Assembly (NCBI RefSeq): GCF_022919175.1
Contig: NZ_CP095043.1
Span: 1,178,001 to 1,242,000 of the forward strand
Direction: 5' to 3'
From: Leucobacter rhizosphaerae
Lineage (GTDB): Bacteria; Actinomycetota; Actinomycetes; Actinomycetales; Microbacteriaceae
DNA: 64,000 nucleotides
Positions 6,508 through 56,462 of this stretch are shown here, in pieces; the stretch's first letter is position 1, and every line of letters starts with the position of its first letter. The position numbers and the translations under genes were made by a program. Below the pieces are notes generated by a model. The model saw only the letters and a program-made list of their open reading frames with translations, had not been told where the DNA came from and ran no database searches.

Positions 6508-7510
6508 CTTGTGCTCCTTTCGAGGTGGACACTTCGATCGTATGAGGAAGTGGCCGGGCCATGTTGACCCTTGAATTCTCAGCCGCGGATTGATACGCCA
6601 CAAGGCGATCCAGGCTCCACTCGTACCGCTCGAGCCACACGAACGCGTGGATCCAGGTCTCCACGAGGTGCACGCTCGGGTGCGCGCGGATCGTGCGGAC
6701 GATCTCGGTGTAGTCGGCCACCGACCGCGCTGCGATGGTCGCGATGAGCCCGTAGCGCCCGAGCGTACGGGCCGCGAACTCGATGGTCGGGATGCGCAGC
6801 AGCAGCTCTTCGGCCGACGCGAGGTCGTCGTCCTCACCGGTCAGCATGATCCCGACGCCCGACAGGACCGAGGTCGTGATGCTCAGGCGGCTGCGCACGG
6901 CGCCGATCCGCATCACCCGTGACTCGAGCAGTCGGAGCACGCGGGCCCGGCAGGCCGAGGCGGATCGTCCGGTGCGCCGCGCCAGCTCCCCGAACGTCAG
7001 CCGTCCGTCGGTCTGGAGCTGCGCCATGAGCGCCACGTCGAATTCATCGAAGACCAGGTCGGTGAGTTCGGGATCCTCACCGAGCCGAAGCCGCCGCAGC
7101 ACGCGGTCGTAGATCGCGAGCTGCACGTCGATCACCCCGGGGATGGCCTGGATCTCGCGCACCGTCCGCCCCACGTCCTCCAGGTTCGCGGCCCACACCT
7201 CGACGACCGCCTGCGATTGGCCGCTGATCTCCGACAGGAACACCACGTTCGGGAACTCCCGGAGGTGCTCGAACACCGGGGACGTCGGGCCGCTGATGCG
7301 CAACTGCAGGTTCACCTGGACCGGCAGCCCCACGGCCCGAGGGTGCACCGCCGCCATGATCCGGATCTCGCCGGAGGAGAGCAGCTCGTTGACGCGTTGG
7401 GCGACGAGCGTGCGATGCACACCGAGGTCCTCGGCGAGCGCGGAGAACTGCGCGCGGCCATCGAGCTGCAGCGCGCGAATGAGGTCCTCGTCAAAATCAT
7501 CCATCTCCAT
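6425..7510 (-). CDS. Lrp/AsnC family transcriptional regulator with duplicated domains
   Basis: A 361-residue protein with two winged-HTH/AsnC units in tandem. HTH 1 is near residues 5-50 (LIRALQLDGRAQFSALAEDL), followed by a ligand-type beta-alpha domain; HTH 2 begins at VALMAQLQTDGRLTFGELAR, followed by a second such domain. This double architecture occurs in actinobacterial AsnC regulators that sense amino acids or related acids. The start is uncertain (ATG at 7510 or 7504). The last ~28 residues are encoded inside the csbD-like gene in another frame and look unstructured (Arg/Gln-rich). It is divergent from the amidohydrolase operon, which it probably controls. Confidence 0.82.
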   Translation of the reverse strand: MEMDDFDEDLIRALQLDGRAQFSALAEDLGVHRTLVAQRVNELLSSGEIRIMAAVHPRAVGLPVQVNLQLRISGPTSPVFEHLREFPNVVFLSEISGQSQAVVEVWAANLEDVGRTVREIQAIPGVIDVQLAIYDRVLRRLRLGEDPELTDLVFDEFDVALMAQLQTDGRLTFGELARRTGRSASACRARVLRLLESRVMRIGAVRSRLSITTSVLSGVGIMLTGEDDDLASAEELLLRIPTIEFAARTLGRYGLIATIAARSVADYTEIVRTIRAHPSVHLVETWIHAFVWLERYEWSLDRLVAYQSAAENSRVNMARPLPHTIEVSTSKGAQDEHRRQNQEHGAEPRRQGEGSRRQGDG

Positions 7511-47020: not shown

Positions 47021-47911
47021 TCACAGCCCGAGCTGATCAAGCCGCGATTCGAAGCGCACCTGGACGTCCTCGGGTTCGGCACCGTCACTCTCGGACCAGA
47101 TCGCGTCGAGTTCCCGCTGCACGGACGCGGGCAGCGCCGCGTACTTCGACTCCCAGTCGACGATCGGGGTCCAGTACCCGACGACCTTGAAGTGGGTCGC
47201 GGGCAAGCCGAGCTCCCGACGCACGTACTTGCGCACATCGCGGAGCGCGACGGTCTCCCCCGCGACCCAGATGTAGCCCTCGTCCAGCGGCAGTCGCGCG
47301 TCCACAATGGTGCGCACGATCTGGCCGAGCGTGCTCGGGCCGTGGCCGTTGCCGCCGATCACCCACGTCACGTCAACGTCCGCTCCGAACTCGAGCGGAA
47401 CGCGATCCGCCTCCGTCGCGACCTCAAGCACCACCCGTGTCAGCACCCCGGGCGGCACTGCGGCAGCGATGCGCGCCGCGGCCGGCAACCCGGTGAGATC
47501 GGCCACGAGCACTTGCCAGGTCGTGCCCGGCGGTGGATCGTAGAGGCCCGTCGGCGAGTTGAGGCCGAGCACGTGCCCCGGAGCGGCCCGCGCGGCCCAG
47601 GGACCAGCGACCCCGGCGTCGTGGAGCACGAAGTCGATGTCGATCTCCCCCGCTGCCGGGCGCGCCTCCCGGATCGTGTACGTGCGCATCGGAGCGTCCG
47701 GTGCACCCTCGGGCGTCGCCCACCAGTCACCGTCCGGGACCGGCAACGAGACGTCGGTGGGGTCGTCGCCGTGCGGGAAGAAGACGCGCACGTACTCGTC
47801 GCCGATGCCCGTGCTCAGGAAGTCGGCGATGCCGTCACCCCCCAGGGTGACCCGGGTGAGCGTGGCGGTGAGCGGGGTGACGCGGGTGACAGTGCCGCGG
47901 TGGATCTTCAC
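47021..47911 (-). CDS. Siderophore-interacting protein (SIP/FAD-dependent ferric reductase)
   Basis: A 296-residue flavoprotein of the SIP family. The FAD-binding part has RTYTIREARPAAGEIDIDFVLHD and GPWAARAAPGHVLG; the C-terminal NAD(P) part has ADLTGLPAAARIA, IWVAGETVALRDVRKYVRRELG and YWTPIVDWES. The enzyme reduces Fe(III)-siderophores in the cytoplasm to free the iron. A GTG at 47911 with GGAG 7 bases upstream overlaps the stop of the ABC half-transporter gene by 4 bases (GTGA), so it is the last gene of the siderophore operon. In mycobacteria this domain is fused to IrtA. Confidence 0.92.
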   Translation of the reverse strand: MKIHRGTVTRVTPLTATLTRVTLGGDGIADFLSTGIGDEYVRVFFPHGDDPTDVSLPVPDGDWWATPEGAPDAPMRTYTIREARPAAGEIDIDFVLHDAGVAGPWAARAAPGHVLGLNSPTGLYDPPPGTTWQVLVADLTGLPAAARIAAAVPPGVLTRVVLEVATEADRVPLEFGADVDVTWVIGGNGHGPSTLGQIVRTIVDARLPLDEGYIWVAGETVALRDVRKYVRRELGLPATHFKVVGYWTPIVDWESKYAALPASVQRELDAIWSESDGAEPEDVQVRFESRLDQLGL

Positions 47912-49788
47912 GGGGTCTCCGTTTCGGGGTCTGGGCACGGACCGGAGACCCGGTCGGAGTGCGGTTCGGGGGAATGGTCGGAGTGCGGTTCGTGGCGCGG
48001 ATCTGGATCTGGGTCGGCACCGGGGCTCAGTGCAGGATCCGGCGGGTGCGGCGCGGAGGCCGAGTGCGCGTCCCAGAATTCTCGGTAGGCCCCGGCGCGG
48101 GCGCGCAGCCCGTCATGCGTCCCTTGCTGCACGATCTCGCCGCCCTGGAGCACGAAGATCCGGTCGGCGTTCGACACCGACTGGAGCCGATGCGCGATGA
48201 GGATCGTGGTCCGGTCGCGACGGAGCACCTCGATCGCCCGTTCGACGGCGTCGCGGTGCTGGAGCCCGACATCGGCGGTCGCCTCGTCGAGGATCACGAC
48301 GGGGGCGTCCGCGAGCAGCGCACGCGCGATCGCGAGCTGCTGGATTCGGCCCTCGTCGAGCGAGTGCTCGGGACTGGATGCGGCGGTGAGATCGGCGGCG
48401 GGATCGGCGGCGTCCCCCGCGAGCGCCCAGTCGGCGCCGACGGCCCGCAGCACCTCTGCGAGATCCCGGTCGCTCGCCCCGGGCGCCGCGAGTCGCAGAT
48501 TCTCGGCGATCCCCCCGCGGAACTGATGCAGTTCCTGCGAGATGTAATACGGCGCTGTGTCGTGATCGAGACGCACTGTGCCGGTGTCGGGCGGATGGTG
48601 CCCGGCGATCACTCGCGCGAGCGTACTCTTGCCCGATCCCGAGCTCCCGACGAAGGCCACTGTGGTGCCGTGATCAACGCGCAGCGAGATGCCGGACAGG
48701 CCCCGGCCGGTCGTCGCGTAGCGGAAGGCGACGTCGTCGACCGTGACGCCGACGGGCGCACCGGCCGCGGGCACGTCCGCAGGGGGGCGGGACGGCGCCA
48801 GTTCGATGACCCCGACGAGTCGCGCGAGCCCGATCGTGGCCCGCTGGATGTCGTCGAGCCCGAAGATCAGTTGCCCGATGGGGTCGAAGAGCCGATGGAA
48901 CACGAGTGCGGCCGCGGTCGCCATCCCGACGGAGATCGCCTCGGATGACACCAGGACGAATCCCGTGGCGAGCAGGGCGATCAGTCCGACCGCCTCCCCG
49001 CCGTTGATCCAGCGGAACAGGCGATTGCGCACGCGCACGGCGTCGATCTGGATCCGGATCGATGCCGCGGCGCGATCCTCGACCCTGCGCAGCGCGTGGC
49101 TCTGCTCGTTCAGTGCGGTCAGGGTGTCGCGACCCGACACCGCCTCCATGACCGCCTGGCTCCGCGATGCCTCGCGAGCGCGCATCTCGCGGAACACGAC
49201 GCGCGAGCGGCGGAGGAACGCCCGGGTGCCGAGCACGTAGAAGGGCAGGCAGGCCACCCCGGCGAGGGCGAGCCAGGGGTTCAGCGCCGTGAGCGCCCCG
49301 AGCGACACGACCACGGCGAACCCGGCGGAGAGCAGGGTCGGCACGACCGAACCACCGGCTTCGGCGACCGCATCGACGTCGCCGGTGACGCGCGAGAGCA
49401 GGTCGGCGCTCTCGCCGTCGTCGATCGTGCTCACCGGGAGTCGCATCGCTGCGGAGAAGACGTCCTCGCGCAATCCCGCGAGCACGTCCTGCACCAGCCC
49501 CGCGAGCATCCGCGCACCCCAGAGCGCGACGAGCGCGGCGCTGATGGCACCGAGCGCCACCCCGCCGACCCAGGCCGCCATGGTCGGCGTGCCCGCCCCG
49601 GTCGACACCGCATCGACGATGCGGCCCAGGCAGAGCGGGAGCACGAGGCCGAGCCCGGATGCTCCGAGGAAGAGCACCGCCACGAGTGCGGTCCGCGCGC
49701 GATGCCGGCGCAGCAGGCGCGCCAGGGTTCGCCGCACCTCGGATGCGCTGGCGATGGGCAGGGTGGTGCCGGCGATCGGGTCAGTCAT
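47908..49788 (-). CDS. ABC exporter-fold half-transporter B (IrtB-like), intact Walker A, lost signature
   Basis: A 626-residue half-transporter: six membrane segments (residues about 30-310), then an ATPase. Walker A GSSGSGKST is at 381-389, Q-loop Gln at 418, Walker B VVILDE at 497-502, switch His at 533. The signature is SLDEG (476-480) instead of LSGGQ. The D-loop is ADVG. The tail from about 575 is rich in His, Pro and Asp (repeats of [E/D]PHSD), which could bind metal. Its ATG at 49788 overlaps the stop of the partner subunit by 8 bases, and its stop overlaps the SIP start by 4. It is likely a heterodimer partner of the 49781-51481 protein. Confidence 0.9.
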   Translation of the reverse strand: MTDPIAGTTLPIASASEVRRTLARLLRRHRARTALVAVLFLGASGLGLVLPLCLGRIVDAVSTGAGTPTMAAWVGGVALGAISAALVALWGARMLAGLVQDVLAGLREDVFSAAMRLPVSTIDDGESADLLSRVTGDVDAVAEAGGSVVPTLLSAGFAVVVSLGALTALNPWLALAGVACLPFYVLGTRAFLRRSRVVFREMRAREASRSQAVMEAVSGRDTLTALNEQSHALRRVEDRAAASIRIQIDAVRVRNRLFRWINGGEAVGLIALLATGFVLVSSEAISVGMATAAALVFHRLFDPIGQLIFGLDDIQRATIGLARLVGVIELAPSRPPADVPAAGAPVGVTVDDVAFRYATTGRGLSGISLRVDHGTTVAFVGSSGSGKSTLARVIAGHHPPDTGTVRLDHDTAPYYISQELHQFRGGIAENLRLAAPGASDRDLAEVLRAVGADWALAGDAADPAADLTAASSPEHSLDEGRIQQLAIARALLADAPVVILDEATADVGLQHRDAVERAIEVLRRDRTTILIAHRLQSVSNADRIFVLQGGEIVQQGTHDGLRARAGAYREFWDAHSASAPHPPDPALSPGADPDPDPRHEPHSDHSPEPHSDRVSGPCPDPETETP

Positions 49789-51481
49789 GCCCGGACTCCG
49801 CCCTGGCCGCCGCCCCGACCTCCGCCCCGGCCGACCGCAGGTCGACGACGCGGTCGCAGGCCGCGAGCAGCACCGGTGACGACGTGATGACCACCACGGT
49901 GCCGTCGTGCTCCGCGAGACCCGCGGCGACACGGGCCTCGGTGATCGCGTCGACGGCCGAGGTCGGCTCGTCGAGCACGAGCACCTCCGCACCCGCGTGC
50001 AGTCCTCGCGCGAGCCCGATCCGCTGGCGCTGCCCGCCCGAGAGCCGGCGCCCGGCCTCCCCCACCTCGGCATCCCAGCCGCCGATCTCATCGACCGTGT
50101 CGTGGAGGGCCGCGGCACGCACGGCGGTCGTGTCGATGCCGTCGGGGTCCGTCCGATCCTCGGGCCTCCCCGGGTGCCGGTCCCGCTGCGGGCCCCCGAT
50201 CGCATCGCGGAGCGTGCCGCTCATCATGGTGTGGTGGTGTGGCATCGCGACCACCCGGGCGCGCACGGCACTCGGATCGAGCTCTCGGACGTCGCGGTGC
50301 ACACCGTCGACCTCGAGCGATACGGCGCCGGGGTCGACGGGGATCCGCAACCCGAGTCGGTCGGACAGGGCGCGGGCGGCGTCGCGGTCGGTGGGCCGGA
50401 TTCCCACGAGTTCGCCCCGTCGTACGTCGATGCGGTCGCCCGCCCCGACCTGGAACGACAGCACGCCCGAGCGCTCCCGGTCGCTCGCAGGCCCCGGGGT
50501 CGGCGCGGTCGGAGCCTCGATCAGATCTCCCGCGTTGATGACCTCGGCGAGCCGCTTCGCCGAGGCCAGCTTGTGGATCCAGTTCGACGGGAACGAGCCC
50601 GCGAACGCGAGCGAGCCGCTCACGAACTGGGCGAGCCCGAGCACCGTCACGAGCTCGCCGATGCCGATCTGGCCGTCCGCGGCGAACCAGGCGGAGACCC
50701 CCGCGAGCCCGGTGATGGTCACCGCCGCGAGGATCGCGCTCACCGCTTCGTACCCGGCGAGTGTGCGGGCGGCCGCGGTTGCGGCGATGCGCGACCGATC
50801 ACTCGCGGTCTCGTATCGCCGCACCGCCTCGCGGCGCGCGCCGATTCCGACGAGCACGCGGAACCCGGTCATGAAGTCGGCCGCGACGGCGCCAGCCTCG
50901 GTCGCGGCTCGCTGCTCGACGAGGCCTCGCCGTTCGAGCGGCCGCGAGACCGCGCGCATCACCGCCATCATGGCGATGGTCGCTCCGAAGACCACGGCGG
51001 TCGCGACGGGCGAGATAACGAGCATCGCCAGCCCCGATCCGAGGATCGCCGCGAGCGTCGCGCACTGCTGCGCCACCGACCAGGCGACCCCCGCAACCCG
51101 GTACGTGTCGGAGGTCGCGTAGGTGAGCGCCTCACCCGCCGAGAGCGGCAGCCGGGAGAGCCGCGGTCGCAGCATACGCGACAACGTGAGGTGCCGCAGC
51201 GCCTGCTCCCCGTGACCGTAGACCGACACCATGAGCCGCGACGCGGTCTGGTACGAGGTCGTGAGCACGAGGAAGACCCCGAGCAGCAATCCCAGCCACA
51301 GCACGAGATCGGCGGGGTCGCGGGGCAGCACGGCGCGGTCGATGGTGAGACCGATCATCACCGGGATCGCGGCCTCGGAGAGGGCGTGCAGGACGAGCAG
51401 CAGCGTCGCCGCGGCGAGCGCCGTCCCCCGACGCTCCCCCGCGAGTGCGATGCGGAACAGGGTGCCAGGGGTGACGGTCAC
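49781..51481 (-). CDS. ABC exporter-fold half-transporter A (IrtA-like), Walker A lost, signature intact
   Basis: A 566-residue half-transporter: six membrane segments (about 20-300), then an ATPase domain. The place of Walker A reads LVGIRPTDRDA (358-368) with no GxxGxGK[S/T], the Q-loop Gln is replaced (AMPHHH, about 413), and the switch His is Ser (VITSSP, 534). The signature LSGGQRQR (480-487) and Walker B LVLDEP (501-506) are intact. It cannot bind ATP normally by itself but would complete the consensus site of its partner. GTG at 51481 overlaps the ATPase pseudogene stop by 4 bases. Confidence 0.9.
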   Translation of the reverse strand: MTVTPGTLFRIALAGERRGTALAAATLLLVLHALSEAAIPVMIGLTIDRAVLPRDPADLVLWLGLLLGVFLVLTTSYQTASRLMVSVYGHGEQALRHLTLSRMLRPRLSRLPLSAGEALTYATSDTYRVAGVAWSVAQQCATLAAILGSGLAMLVISPVATAVVFGATIAMMAVMRAVSRPLERRGLVEQRAATEAGAVAADFMTGFRVLVGIGARREAVRRYETASDRSRIAATAAARTLAGYEAVSAILAAVTITGLAGVSAWFAADGQIGIGELVTVLGLAQFVSGSLAFAGSFPSNWIHKLASAKRLAEVINAGDLIEAPTAPTPGPASDRERSGVLSFQVGAGDRIDVRRGELVGIRPTDRDAARALSDRLGLRIPVDPGAVSLEVDGVHRDVRELDPSAVRARVVAMPHHHTMMSGTLRDAIGGPQRDRHPGRPEDRTDPDGIDTTAVRAAALHDTVDEIGGWDAEVGEAGRRLSGGQRQRIGLARGLHAGAEVLVLDEPTSAVDAITEARVAAGLAEHDGTVVVITSSPVLLAACDRVVDLRSAGAEVGAAARAESGHD

Positions 51482-52266
51482 GGGGTCCTCCGCCCGAGCG
51501 GCAGCACCAGCGGGGTCCCGGAGACGGGATCCGTGATGACCCGGCACGGCAGATCGTAGACGGCCTCGACCAGTTCCTCGGTGATGACCTCTCGGGGGTC
51601 GCCCTGCGCAACGATCGCGCCGTCGCGCATCGCGACGAGGTGCGTGGCGTAGCGAGCGGCATGGTTCAGGTCGTGGAGCACGGCGACCAGGGTGGTGCCG
51701 CTGCGGTGGAGGTCGGCGAAGAGCTCGAGCAGGTCGATCTGGTGCGCGATGTCGAGGAACGTGGTCGGTTCGTCGAGCAGCAGGTGGCCGGTCTGCTGCG
51801 CCAGAGCCATCGCCACCCAGACGCGCTGGCGCTGGCCGCCCGAGAGTTCGTCGACCAGGCGCGCGGCGAGATCGGTGATCGACGTCGCCGCCATCGCCTC
51901 CGCAACCGCGTGCTCGTCTTCGCGACTCCAGGTGCGCATCGCATTCTGGTGGGGAAAGCGCCCGCGCCCGACGAGGTCGGCGACCGTGATGCCGTCCGGC
52001 GCGATGGAGCTCTGCGGCAGCAGCCCGAGCTTCCGGGCCACTTCCTTCGGCTTCCGGCGATGCAGCTCCTCGCCATCGAGCAGGACCGCTCCCGAACTCG
52101 GGCGGAGCAGCCGGGCGAAGCCGCGCAGCAGGGTCTACTTGCCGCAGGCGTTCGGGCCGATGATGATCGTAAATGAGCGATCCGGCACCTCGAGGGTGAG
52201 ATCGGAGATGATGCGGGTGTCCCCGTAGCTCAGTGTGATGTCGCGTGCGACGAGCGATGCGGTCAT
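51478..52266 (-). pseudogene. FecE-type iron-siderophore ABC ATPase disrupted by a stop codon in Walker A
   Basis: From the ATG at 52266 (AAAGGAAC upstream) the frame codes for a normal 262-residue siderophore-importer ATPase: LVARDITLSYGDTRIISDL, then GPNACGK. Codon 44 (52135-52137) is TAG where the family has the Ser of GK[S/T]T; TCG to TAG is a single base change. The same frame continues without other lesions to the stop at 51478, with TLLRGFARLLRP, ELSGGQRQRVW, LLLDEPTTFLDIAHQ and VLHDLNHA all intact. Ribosomes could restart at a GTG (52041), but that product lacks Walker A. Sequencing error or amber read-through are the alternatives. Confidence 0.88.
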
Positions 52267-52277
52267 GCGGGTTCCTT

Positions 52278-53312
52278 TCATGAGCGACGTCCGTACTGGG
52301 CCGCGAGCAGCCACGCCAGGTAGAGCCCGCCGATCGACACCGTGACGACCCCGACAGGCACCAGGAGCAGCTGGGCGACACCGTCGGAGGCGACGACCAG
52401 CGCGGCCCCGGTGAGCATGACCGGAACGAGACCCATGGGGGTGTTCGAGCGCGTGAGCCGCTGGGAGATCTGCGGCGCAGCGAGCGCGATGAACGACATG
52501 GGGCCCGCCGCCGCGGTCACGAGCGCGACGAGCGCGACCCCGATCACCATGGCGGAGAGGCTGGTGCGCGCCGGACTCACGCCGAGCGCCGTCGCCGCGT
52601 CGTCGCCCATCTCGAGTACCGGGAGGGTGCGGTGCAGCGGCACGGCGAAGAGCACCACGAGCGCGAACACGGCGGCCGCGGGCAGGAGCTGATCGAAGCC
52701 GAGCGACGCGAGGGATCCCGCGCCCCAGGTCGCGGCCATCATCGCCTTCTCGACGCTGACGGAGATGAGGATCCAGGACGTCAGCGAGCCGAGGCCGGCC
52801 GAAACGCCGATGCCGACGATGATGAGGCGGAACGACGACATCGTGTGCTTCATCGCCAGGAAGTACACGACCAGTGCGGTGATGAGCCCGCCGACGAGCG
52901 CGCCCGCCGCCTTGAACAGGTACGTGTTCAGCTCCAGCACGATCATGGTGAGGGTGACGCCGAACTGGGCGCCGATGCCGAACCCGATGATGTCGGGCGA
53001 CCCGAGCGGGTTGCGAGTGAGCGACTGGAAGATGCCGCCCGACAGCGCCAGCGCCGCGCCGCAGAGCATTGCGAAGAGCACCCGCGGCAGGCGCCATTCG
53101 AAGACGACCTGGCGGGTGTCGATGTCGGTGCTCGGGTCGACGAGCGCGCGGAGCACCTCGACGACGCTCACGTCGTAGGCCCCGATCGTCATCGTCGCGG
53201 CCCCGGCGGCGATGATCACCCCCGCGAGCACGAGTGAGACGACCACCGAGCGTACCGGGATGCGGCCGGAGACCCAGGGGGTGTCGATTCGGAGGGTGCG
53301 GCGAGCGTTCAC
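52278..53312 (-). CDS. Iron-siderophore ABC transporter permease (FecD type)
   Basis: A 344-residue FecCD permease with about ten membrane segments. Family motifs are WRLPRVLFAMLCGAALALSG, FQSLTRNPLGSPDIIGFGIGA and the coupling region AGPMSFIALAAPQISQRLT. With the second permease it forms the channel of a type II siderophore importer. The GTG at 53312 overlaps the stop of the upstream permease by 4 bases. The ATPase that should drive it is broken in this sequence. Confidence 0.92.
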   Translation of the reverse strand: MNARRTLRIDTPWVSGRIPVRSVVVSLVLAGVIIAAGAATMTIGAYDVSVVEVLRALVDPSTDIDTRQVVFEWRLPRVLFAMLCGAALALSGGIFQSLTRNPLGSPDIIGFGIGAQFGVTLTMIVLELNTYLFKAAGALVGGLITALVVYFLAMKHTMSSFRLIIVGIGVSAGLGSLTSWILISVSVEKAMMAATWGAGSLASLGFDQLLPAAAVFALVVLFAVPLHRTLPVLEMGDDAATALGVSPARTSLSAMVIGVALVALVTAAAGPMSFIALAAPQISQRLTRSNTPMGLVPVMLTGAALVVASDGVAQLLLVPVGVVTVSIGGLYLAWLLAAQYGRRS

Positions 53313-54409
53313 AGACCGCTCACCTGCCGACGCCGCACGAGCGCGATGAGCACGGGTGCGCCGAGGATGCCCGTGACGATCCCGACCCGCAGTTCACCGT
53401 TCGGGAGCACCACGCGTCCAAGGACGTCGGCGAGGAGGAGGAAGACGGGCCCGATGACCATCGAGTACGCGAGCACCCAGCGCTGGTCGGGCCCCGTGAA
53501 CCAGCGCACCATGTGCGGGATCATGATGCCGACGAACGCGATCGGACCGGCCGCCGCGACGCACGTGCCCGCCAGCAGCGTCACGGCGACGATCACGAGG
53601 ATACGGGTGATGCGGATGCGAGCGCCGAGCGCCTGCGCGAGGTCGTCACCGAGCGCGAGGGCGTTCAGGGAGCGCGCGCAGCCGAGCCCGATGAGCAGTC
53701 CCGCGGCGATGAGCGGAAGGGCCCACTGGAGCTGATCGAGCGTGCGGCCTCCGACCGATCCGACACCCCAGAAACGCATGACCTGCAGGGTGCTGTGATT
53801 CTGCAGCACGATGGCCGTGGTGAACCCGGTGAACGCGGCCCCGAGGGCGACCCCCGCGAGGGTCAACTTCATGGGCGTTGCGCCGGACGACCCGAAGGAT
53901 CCGAGGGCGTAGACGAGCACGGTGAGCACGAACGCCCCGGCTAGGGCGAAGGGCACGTAGCCCCCCGGCGTCGTGAGCCCGAGCACCCCCACGGCGAAGG
54001 TGACGGCGAACGAGGCCCCCGCGTTCACTCCGAGGATTCCGGGGTCGGCGAGCGGGTTGCGTGTGAAGGCTTGGATGAGCGCGCCGCACACCGCGAGCGC
54101 GGCGCCGACCAGGATCCCGAGGACCGTGCGCGGCACGCGCAGCTCGAGCACCAGGAGGTGCAGGGGGTTCGCGTCGTCCGTGGCGGTGATCGCGGTGATC
54201 ACCGTCGCCGGGTCGATCGCGCGGCTCCCGACCGCGAGGGAGGCGATCGTGGCCAGCACCAGGCAGGCGCCCGCGACGAGCAATCCGATGGTGCGAGCAC
54301 CGTGCCGGGTCGTGCCCGGCCCGCCGCTCCGGAGCACGCCGCGACCGCGCGGGAGGATCGCCCGGGCGGGGCGTCCTCCCCAGTCGGTGCGCGGCGCGGG
54401 TTCGGTCAC
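53309..54409 (-). CDS. Iron-siderophore ABC transporter permease (FecC type)
   Basis: A 366-residue FecCD permease. The motifs LRVPRTVLGILVGAALAVCGAL, IQAFTRNPLADPGILGVNAGA and AAGPIAFVGIMIPHMVRW are visible over about ten membrane segments. The N-terminal 35 residues are basic and Gly/Arg-rich. GTG at 54409 is its likely start, overlapping the final base of the substrate-binding protein stop. It pairs with the next permease. Confidence 0.92.
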   Translation of the reverse strand: MTEPAPRTDWGGRPARAILPRGRGVLRSGGPGTTRHGARTIGLLVAGACLVLATIASLAVGSRAIDPATVITAITATDDANPLHLLVLELRVPRTVLGILVGAALAVCGALIQAFTRNPLADPGILGVNAGASFAVTFAVGVLGLTTPGGYVPFALAGAFVLTVLVYALGSFGSSGATPMKLTLAGVALGAAFTGFTTAIVLQNHSTLQVMRFWGVGSVGGRTLDQLQWALPLIAAGLLIGLGCARSLNALALGDDLAQALGARIRITRILVIVAVTLLAGTCVAAAGPIAFVGIMIPHMVRWFTGPDQRWVLAYSMVIGPVFLLLADVLGRVVLPNGELRVGIVTGILGAPVLIALVRRRQVSGL

Positions 54410-55464
54410 TATCCGGCGATGGTCGGTTCGCCGGCGAGCGCCGCGGCGAGATCCTCGACGTACGTCGGCAGGATGTACTGCAGCGACAGCACGGTCGGCG
54501 CGCTGATCGCCGAGGCCTCGGCGTCGTTCGCGTAGATCACGTACGAGCCCGCCTCGATCGGCTGCCAGCGCGAGACCACCTTGTTCTGCACCGTGTACTC
54601 GCCCTCGGCGACGCTGGCGCCCCAGGCGGCGAACAGCTCGGCGTCGACGTCGTACAGGTTCTCCAGGCTGACGCCGGTGTACCAGTTGTCGCCTTCCGCG
54701 GTCGCGAGGAAGCTGTCCATGGCGGAGGTGGACTCGAACCCGAGCGACTCGGTGATCCGCACGCGCGGGTCGTACTCGAGGTAGACCCCGAGATCGGTGC
54801 CGCCCTCGTTCAGCGTCAGGCCCCAGACGAAACTCTTGCCGTCGAATTCGGGGTGGGCGTCCGCGAGGGAGGTCACGAGCTCCTCGGTTTCCGAGACCAG
54901 CTCCTCGGCCTTCTCGTTCTCCCACATGGCCGCGCCGACCGTGCGGGTCATGTCCTCCCAGGTGCTCGGATCCCAGGGGGCCTCGATGTAGGGCACGGTC
55001 GGGGCGATCTCGCTCAGGCGCTCGTACTCGATGTCGGAGATGCCCGTGTAGAGGCCGAGGATCAGATCCGGCTCGAGCTCCTTGATCGCCTCGTAGTTCG
55101 GGCCTTCCTCGGCGTACGGGATGATCTCGGGGGTCTCGCCGTACTCGGCAGTGACGAACTCCTCGAACCACGGCTGGTAGCCGCTCTCGCCCGCACCCCA
55201 GACCTCTTCGATACCGACCGGGTTTTCGCCGAGGGCGGCGACGATGTCGGGGGTCATCCAGCCGAGCGCGACGATCCGCTTCGGCTTCTCGGTGATGGTG
55301 GTGGAACCGTGGCCGTGCTCGATGACGACCCCGTCCGCGGCGGCGGCGCTCTCGGCGTCCAGGCCGGATGCGCCGCAGCCCGTCAGCACGAGGGCGGTGG
55401 CGGCGAGCAGGGCGGCGAGCCCGGACACGCGTCGCGCCCGAGGGCGCACAGAGGTCTGCGACAT
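54409..55464 (-). CDS. Iron-siderophore substrate-binding lipoprotein (FecB/FepB type)
   Basis: A 351-residue periplasmic-binding-type lipoprotein. The signal ends in a lipobox (VLTGCGAS, lipidated Cys near 30). The mature part starts with IEHGHGSTTITEKPKRIVALGWMTPDIVAALG, followed by IKELEPDLILGLYTGISD, typical of cluster-A siderophore-binding proteins. The ATG at 55464 has GGAG upstream; an in-frame extension to 55512 would bury the signal peptide. It is the first gene of the leftward iron operon, downstream of an iron box. Confidence 0.92.
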   Translation of the reverse strand: MSQTSVRPRARRVSGLAALLAATALVLTGCGASGLDAESAAAADGVVIEHGHGSTTITEKPKRIVALGWMTPDIVAALGENPVGIEEVWGAGESGYQPWFEEFVTAEYGETPEIIPYAEEGPNYEAIKELEPDLILGLYTGISDIEYERLSEIAPTVPYIEAPWDPSTWEDMTRTVGAAMWENEKAEELVSETEELVTSLADAHPEFDGKSFVWGLTLNEGGTDLGVYLEYDPRVRITESLGFESTSAMDSFLATAEGDNWYTGVSLENLYDVDAELFAAWGASVAEGEYTVQNKVVSRWQPIEAGSYVIYANDAEASAISAPTVLSLQYILPTYVEDLAAALAGEPTIAG

Positions 55465-55516
55465 GGTTCTCCGATCGAGAAGAGTGGGAATGGGGCCGCG
55501 ACGACACGGCATGCGA

Positions 55517-55616: not shown

Positions 55617-56462
55617 CTATCGCCAGTAGTCGTCGCGAGCGTGGTCGGCCTGCGCGCGGGCCACGTATCGGCGAGGCGTCATGCCGAAGCGCTCCTTGAA
55701 GGCCGCCGAGAACGCGCTCGTCGAGGCATATCCGCATTTGCTGCCCGCGGCCCCGATGGGGGTGCCGTCCACCATCATCCGGGCCGCGACCGTCATGCGC
55801 ACGCCGGTGCGCCACTGTCCGAAGCTCATGCCGATGTCGTTGCTGAAGACGCGCAGCACACTCCGCTCGTGGAGGCCGTGCGCGGCGAACAGCTCGCGAG
55901 CGGTGCGGGGGTCGCCGGGCTCGTCGAGGACCGCCTGTACGAGCCCGCTCACCCGCTCGTCGCCGGGCAGCGGCACCTCGGCGCGGTCCTCCACCGGATC
56001 GGGCACGGTCTGCTGCAGCATCTCGATCAGGACCGCCTGGATCCGGATCCTCAGCCCGTCCTCCATGTCATTGACGCCGAGGTGCAGCATCATCTCCTGC
56101 ACCGCTCGAGGCACGAGCACGCGGGTGACCTCGTCGATCGAGGTCGCGAGCGAGGCGTCGGGTACGTAGGTGTAGCACCCCGTCGAGTCGCGTTCGTGAA
56201 GCGCGGTGTGCGGGGTGCCGGCCGGGATCCAGATCCCCTGGCCCGGCGCGAGCCGCCACATCGCATCCTGCAGATACACCCACACGGTGCCGCGGTAGCA
56301 CCACGCGAGCATGGGATCGGGGTGGCTGTGGGGCGGCGACAGCGGGCGGGTGGGGTGAGAATCATTACTCGCGACGACCCCGGTCCCCATGAGGTAGGGG
56401 GCGACCACCGAAGAGGGGTGCACCCCGCTGGCCTCCCAATCCACCTGCCGATACGAATTCAT
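55617..56462 (-). CDS. AraC family transcriptional regulator with cupin sensor
   Basis: A 281-residue regulator. The N-terminal cupin has HSHPDPMLAWCYRGTVWVYLQ and PAGTPHTA. The C-terminal double HTH is visible as ARELFAAHGLHERSVLRVF and IGAAGSKCGYASTSAFSAAFKERFGMTPRRYV. It ends 152 bases upstream of the iron operon start, on the same strand, and might activate it in response to a siderophore. The link is inference. Confidence 0.9.
   Translation of the reverse strand: MNSYRQVDWEASGVHPSSVVAPYLMGTGVVASNDSHPTRPLSPPHSHPDPMLAWCYRGTVWVYLQDAMWRLAPGQGIWIPAGTPHTALHERDSTGCYTYVPDASLATSIDEVTRVLVPRAVQEMMLHLGVNDMEDGLRIRIQAVLIEMLQQTVPDPVEDRAEVPLPGDERVSGLVQAVLDEPGDPRTARELFAAHGLHERSVLRVFSNDIGMSFGQWRTGVRMTVAARMMVDGTPIGAAGSKCGYASTSAFSAAFKERFGMTPRRYVARAQADHARDDYWR

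Follow-up and report, generated by a model that had tools for sequence, protein, structure and literature searches.

A probable recent null allele of a siderophore-importer ATPase gene in Leucobacter rhizosphaerae, with an amber codon at the Walker A serine

By sequence, the best solved relative of the intact orthologue P0003 is FhuC, the iron(3+)-hydroxamate import ATPase (PDB 7lb8), with an alignment over residues 8-253 (E 1.6e-57). FhuC has the same motifs as the ATPase family considered here, of which the copy in the window, the whole 64,000-nucleotide stretch of the Leucobacter rhizosphaerae chromosome that was analysed, is cut at codon 44. In the excerpted text of one account (PMC10147376), the FhuC of S. 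aureus is described as the housekeeping ATPase for the Hts, Sir and Isd permeases, and operons for iron-compound permeases can be without an ATPase gene of their own, a likeness to loci compared in this analysis. As given in that excerpt, the sharing of the S. aureus ATPase was demonstrated experimentally, whereas for the system in the window sharing is a possibility (PMC10147376). Interrupted genes of this kind can also be set beside the in-frame stops described as short-lived population polymorphisms in the available portion of Belinky et al. 2021 (PMC7918605), and the window likewise holds a nonsense change within a gene under purifying selection. The large-scale set in that portion of the source consists of stops common to at least two species, whereas the stop in the window occurs in no relative compared.

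The interrupted gene is part of a same-strand row that comprises an AraC regulator, a binding protein, two FecCD permeases, the ATPase, two half-exporters and a siderophore-interacting protein (Table 1). With FecCD permeases and a binding protein beside it, the ATPase gene has the context expected of the FecE/FhuC type, and a Shine-Dalgarno-like AAAGGA precedes its ATG. The closest named relatives of permease 2 are from Leucobacter and other Microbacteriaceae, and the remaining genes of the operon contain no internal stops.

Table 1. Features of the importer operon and of its interrupted ATPase gene, in window positions.
Feature	Position	Strand	Remarks
In-frame TAG	52135..52137	-	Codon 44, Walker A Ser position; Ser in 76/76 other aligned loci
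FecE/FhuC-type ATPase gene	51478..52266	-	262 codons and stop; interrupted at codon 44
Piece before the TAG	52138..52266	-	43 codons; last residue is the Walker A Lys
First start-codon-led open frame after the TAG	51478..52041	-	GTG, 187 aa; without Walker A
FecCD permease 2	52278..53312	-	GTG start overlaps permease 1 stop
FecCD permease 1	53309..54409	-	GTG start (inferred) overlaps stop of binding-protein gene
Substrate-binding protein (Peripla_BP_2)	54409..55512	-	Terminator TAG
AraC-type regulator	55617..56462	-	Terminator TAG
ABC half-exporter 1	49781..51481	-	GTG overlaps TGA of ATPase gene
ABC half-exporter 2	47908..49788	-	
Siderophore-interacting protein (FAD-binding reductase family)	47021..47938	-	

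A preliminary description of this DNA had reported a TAG in place of the Walker A serine of a FecE-type ATPase, at codon 44 of 262, and the codon was found at exactly 52135-52137 of the minus strand. Translation of that strand over the motif reads GPNACGK*TLLRG, which leaves Walker A incomplete, with GK followed by TAG instead of Ser or Thr. The same description had called the frame intact on both sides with its downstream motifs conserved, and translation bears this out: from the ATG at 52266 to the TGA at 51478 on the minus strand there is no internal stop other than the TAG, and what we take to be the Q-loop, LSGGQ, Walker B (LLLDEP) and H-loop (VLHD) are legible in that order 3' of it. Taken alone, the 187-residue piece after the TAG matches Pfam ABC_tran at profile positions 59-137, while the 43-residue piece before it has no Pfam match at E 0.001.

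Comparison of the locus in close relatives, which had been proposed as a check, revealed the stop in none of them, and the position of the TAG holds Ser in all 76 other loci that could be aligned there. This alignment was drawn from 82 loci, of which 77 were aligned (the 77th row is that of the window itself, and at least four genomes are represented twice) and five were dropped as having no alignable copy. The dropped loci (L023, L027, L041, L042 and L052) have no close ATPase in the stretch examined, and permease identity in the last three is only 41-45%. For the loci with at least 75% identity (n = 39), the Ser codon is one substitution from TAG in 33 and two substitutions away in six. A search of the genus for FecE-type genes (cut-off E 1e-70, with scores for 48 candidates in each genome) produced 127 matches in 44 of 54 genomes, and the window copy is the single match with a stop inside. 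Ser is likewise present in all of the best 120 of 8000 database proteins (119 through pattern matching and one on visual inspection), though the database consists of predicted proteins, where broken copies cannot appear. Within the set of copies compared, this assembly alone carries the stop. Two features expected of a recent pseudogene are present, namely intact orthologues in relatives and a TAG that cuts an essential domain. Four rows among other ABC matches also show at least one internal stop; the two of these that were examined, L058 and L062, were rejected as the matches overrun the true end of the gene.

A database copy, P0001 (262 aa, on a contig of 14,803 bases), matches the window protein at each of the other 261 residues and carries Ser at codon 44; it comes from a collection of predicted proteins, and its source may even be this very isolate, assembled separately. 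The binding protein P0241 (351 aa) is 100% identical and occurs on two contigs, the longer of which has 3,337,834 bases like this chromosome, so that a second assembly carrying an identical binding protein exists, and the second contig is likely the 14,803-base contig of P0001. A sister copy of half-exporter 1, on a contig of 2,457 bases, differs at two of 566 residues. Between the window copy and the nearest genome compared (G044), pN/pS is 0.13 before the TAG and 0.07 after it. Four other loci give 0.14-0.20 before and 0.14-0.18 after the TAG, compared with 0.10-0.16 for the intact copy of G044; as synonymous sites are close to saturation in these interspecies comparisons (pS 0.40-0.65), the low ratios exclude only an old loss. 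An old pseudogene under relaxed selection is ruled out by the low pN/pS combined with the otherwise identical intact copy. The proposal that a single change explains the stop is supported, as one recent event in a gene that is otherwise intact and conserved.

The explanation that we consider probable is that a genuine importer ATPase gene carries a recent null allele, private to the assembly. The gene codes for the ATPase component of a FecCD-type importer of siderophores; the base would be real, and a single nonsense change in the Walker A Ser codon would have inactivated the ATPase very recently in this strain. Translation would end after 43 residues, ahead of most of the nucleotide-binding domain, and a restart at the next start codon would yield a product without Walker A, so that, judging from the domain, no working ATPase would be expected from this copy. 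The importer would then be idle in this strain or powered by another FecE-type ATPase of the cell. As the start of half-exporter 1 overlaps the stop of the ATPase gene, translation of the half-exporters downstream could also be lowered by the TAG at codon 44.

Recent loss, a sequencing error and amber read-through had all been offered as origins of the stop, and while the first two are live, the third is unsupported. A consensus base error in the assembly, with an intact ATPase in the strain itself, is possible, though less likely than a private, very recent nonsense allele. Such an error would fit a stop that is private to the assembly, an intact copy identical at all other residues and pN/pS values in which older decay is not evident. 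Against it stands the quality of the genome, a single contig of 3,337,834 bases (99.62% complete, 0.36% contamination), along with the apparent rarity of errors in a 464-kb sample that combined the window with 20 further stretches (20 kb each), four placed on paralogue loci and the others approximately evenly spaced. A scan of this sample for stops that have coding-like sequence in the same frame on either side, using a coding score trained on the same 464 kb, flagged 11. In ten of them a possible start follows after 2-9 codons, and these resemble ordinary gene borders, while the TAG in the window has no possible start for 32 codons downstream and is the sole internal stop found in the 464 kb. 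Only three frameshift-like breaks were flagged in the sample, and with so few breaks and a single internal stop the assembly seems clean, a point in favour of a real mutation but no proof of one. Genome-wide decay or a poor assembly is unsupported in the same 464 kb. The three flagged breaks are at L132:4388, L132:6028 and L141:271, where the coding-like frame switches with no stop close by; these may be frameshifts or overlapping genes.

Read-through, in which an amino acid would be inserted at the TAG and the whole ATPase made, is very unlikely at codon 44. The frame is conserved on both sides of the TAG, as read-through would have it, and many bacterial in-frame stops are argued to be compatible with purifying selection in the available portion of Belinky et al. 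2021 (PMC7918605). Nevertheless, a CUA anticodon is absent from the 46 decoded of 47 tRNA hits across the genome, prfA (RF1) is present, and the stop is absent from the relatives compared. Neither is TAG avoided as a terminator, as it ends two genes of this operon and, by a mechanical count, 112 of 258 coding-like frames in the 464-kb sample. With no Rfam family at gathering score within the window, a known RNA element was rejected together with a suppressor tRNA and the loss of RF1. The 47th tRNA hit, a weak one (G000:C1:2294324-2294395, 31.4 bits), has CAU at the anticodon place of a 7-base loop; as a cut-out stretch it was accepted neither by ARAGORN nor by Rfam at gathering score, and it is perhaps a tRNA relic. 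Ser or Thr, one of which Walker A requires for Mg binding, is rarely the residue inserted by near-cognate suppression of TAG, so that even a read-through product would probably still be a dead ATPase.

Searches of 398 evenly drawn genomes of the family (cut-offs E 1e-130 for the permease of this importer and E 1e-122 for the ATPase) identified the permease in 16, this genome among them, and all 16 have an adjacent ATPase of the same type, intact in 15. The constant pairing speaks for the adjacent ATPase as the normal motor of the permeases, one that is normally kept. Within the genus, the permease occurs in 14 of 54 genomes, with an intact adjacent ATPase in 11 and the interrupted copy in this genome; G042, taken as the genome of L023, is without the ATPase, and in G038 the contig ends beside the permease. 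The ATPase gene is present in 28 of the 30 close loci L001-L030 (cut by a contig end in L001) and absent from L023 and L027. The L023 locus (Leucobacter sp. UT-8R-CII-1-4) has both permeases and no adjacent ATPase gene; from L023:7029 onward, the order of binding protein and two FecCD genes stops after permease 2 and unrelated genes come next, with the exporters not found. In L027 (Sanguibacter inulinus) the ATPase is cleanly absent, and the stop of permease 2 and the start of the half-exporter overlap as ATGA (6981-7005).

The preliminary description had concluded that the loss leaves the permeases without a motor. Their own ATPase gene carries the stop, but "no motor" is overstated, considering an intact paralogue, the ATPase-less sister operons and the example of S. 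aureus FhuC. In what would be a tolerated loss, compatible with the null allele, the importer may use another FecE-type ATPase, and the stop would be nearly neutral. We regard this as doubtful, though several observations point towards it. The chromosome has an intact paralogue, 62% identical, in a second operon of binding protein, two FecCD permeases and FecE (G000:C1:501507-502274), and the retained permease pairs of L023 and L027 have no ATPase gene beside them. A G[D/E]DxAxxLG-like motif, presumably of the coupling-helix region, is common to all 14 permeases compared from five genomes. The excerpted S. aureus account, in which FhuC powers several permeases, provides the precedent (PMC10147376). 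What weighs against a shared motor is the adjacent ATPase type in every permease-bearing genome of the family sample, as well as the distance of the paralogue here compared to the two ATPase-less genomes, where FecE-type genes beside other FecCD pairs are 71% (L023) and 69% (L027) identical to that of the window. A broader scenario is unlikely: that the ATPase was lost three separate times, by the TAG here and by the absences in UT-8R-CII-1-4 and Sanguibacter inulinus, with the permeases left intact because the FecE-type ATPase of another operon powers them. Should this be true, an importer's own ATPase would be conditionally dispensable, and the shared-motor arrangement of S. aureus FhuC would extend to Leucobacter and Sanguibacter.

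As a recent null allele, the change would be an ordinary event in a known kind of gene and would carry little weight beyond correct annotation: within the comparison made, the entry would be a broken FecE peculiar to this assembly and not a recoded gene. Of slightly more weight are the sister operons that have intact permeases but lack an ATPase gene, a direct test case for whether one ATPase serves several siderophore importers in these actinobacteria. In the examined stretches of L006, L017, L022, L024 and L030, the exporter was not found (45% identity, E 1e-30). In many Microbacteriaceae loci, the two half-exporters and the siderophore-interacting protein (47021-51481 in the window) trail the importer genes.
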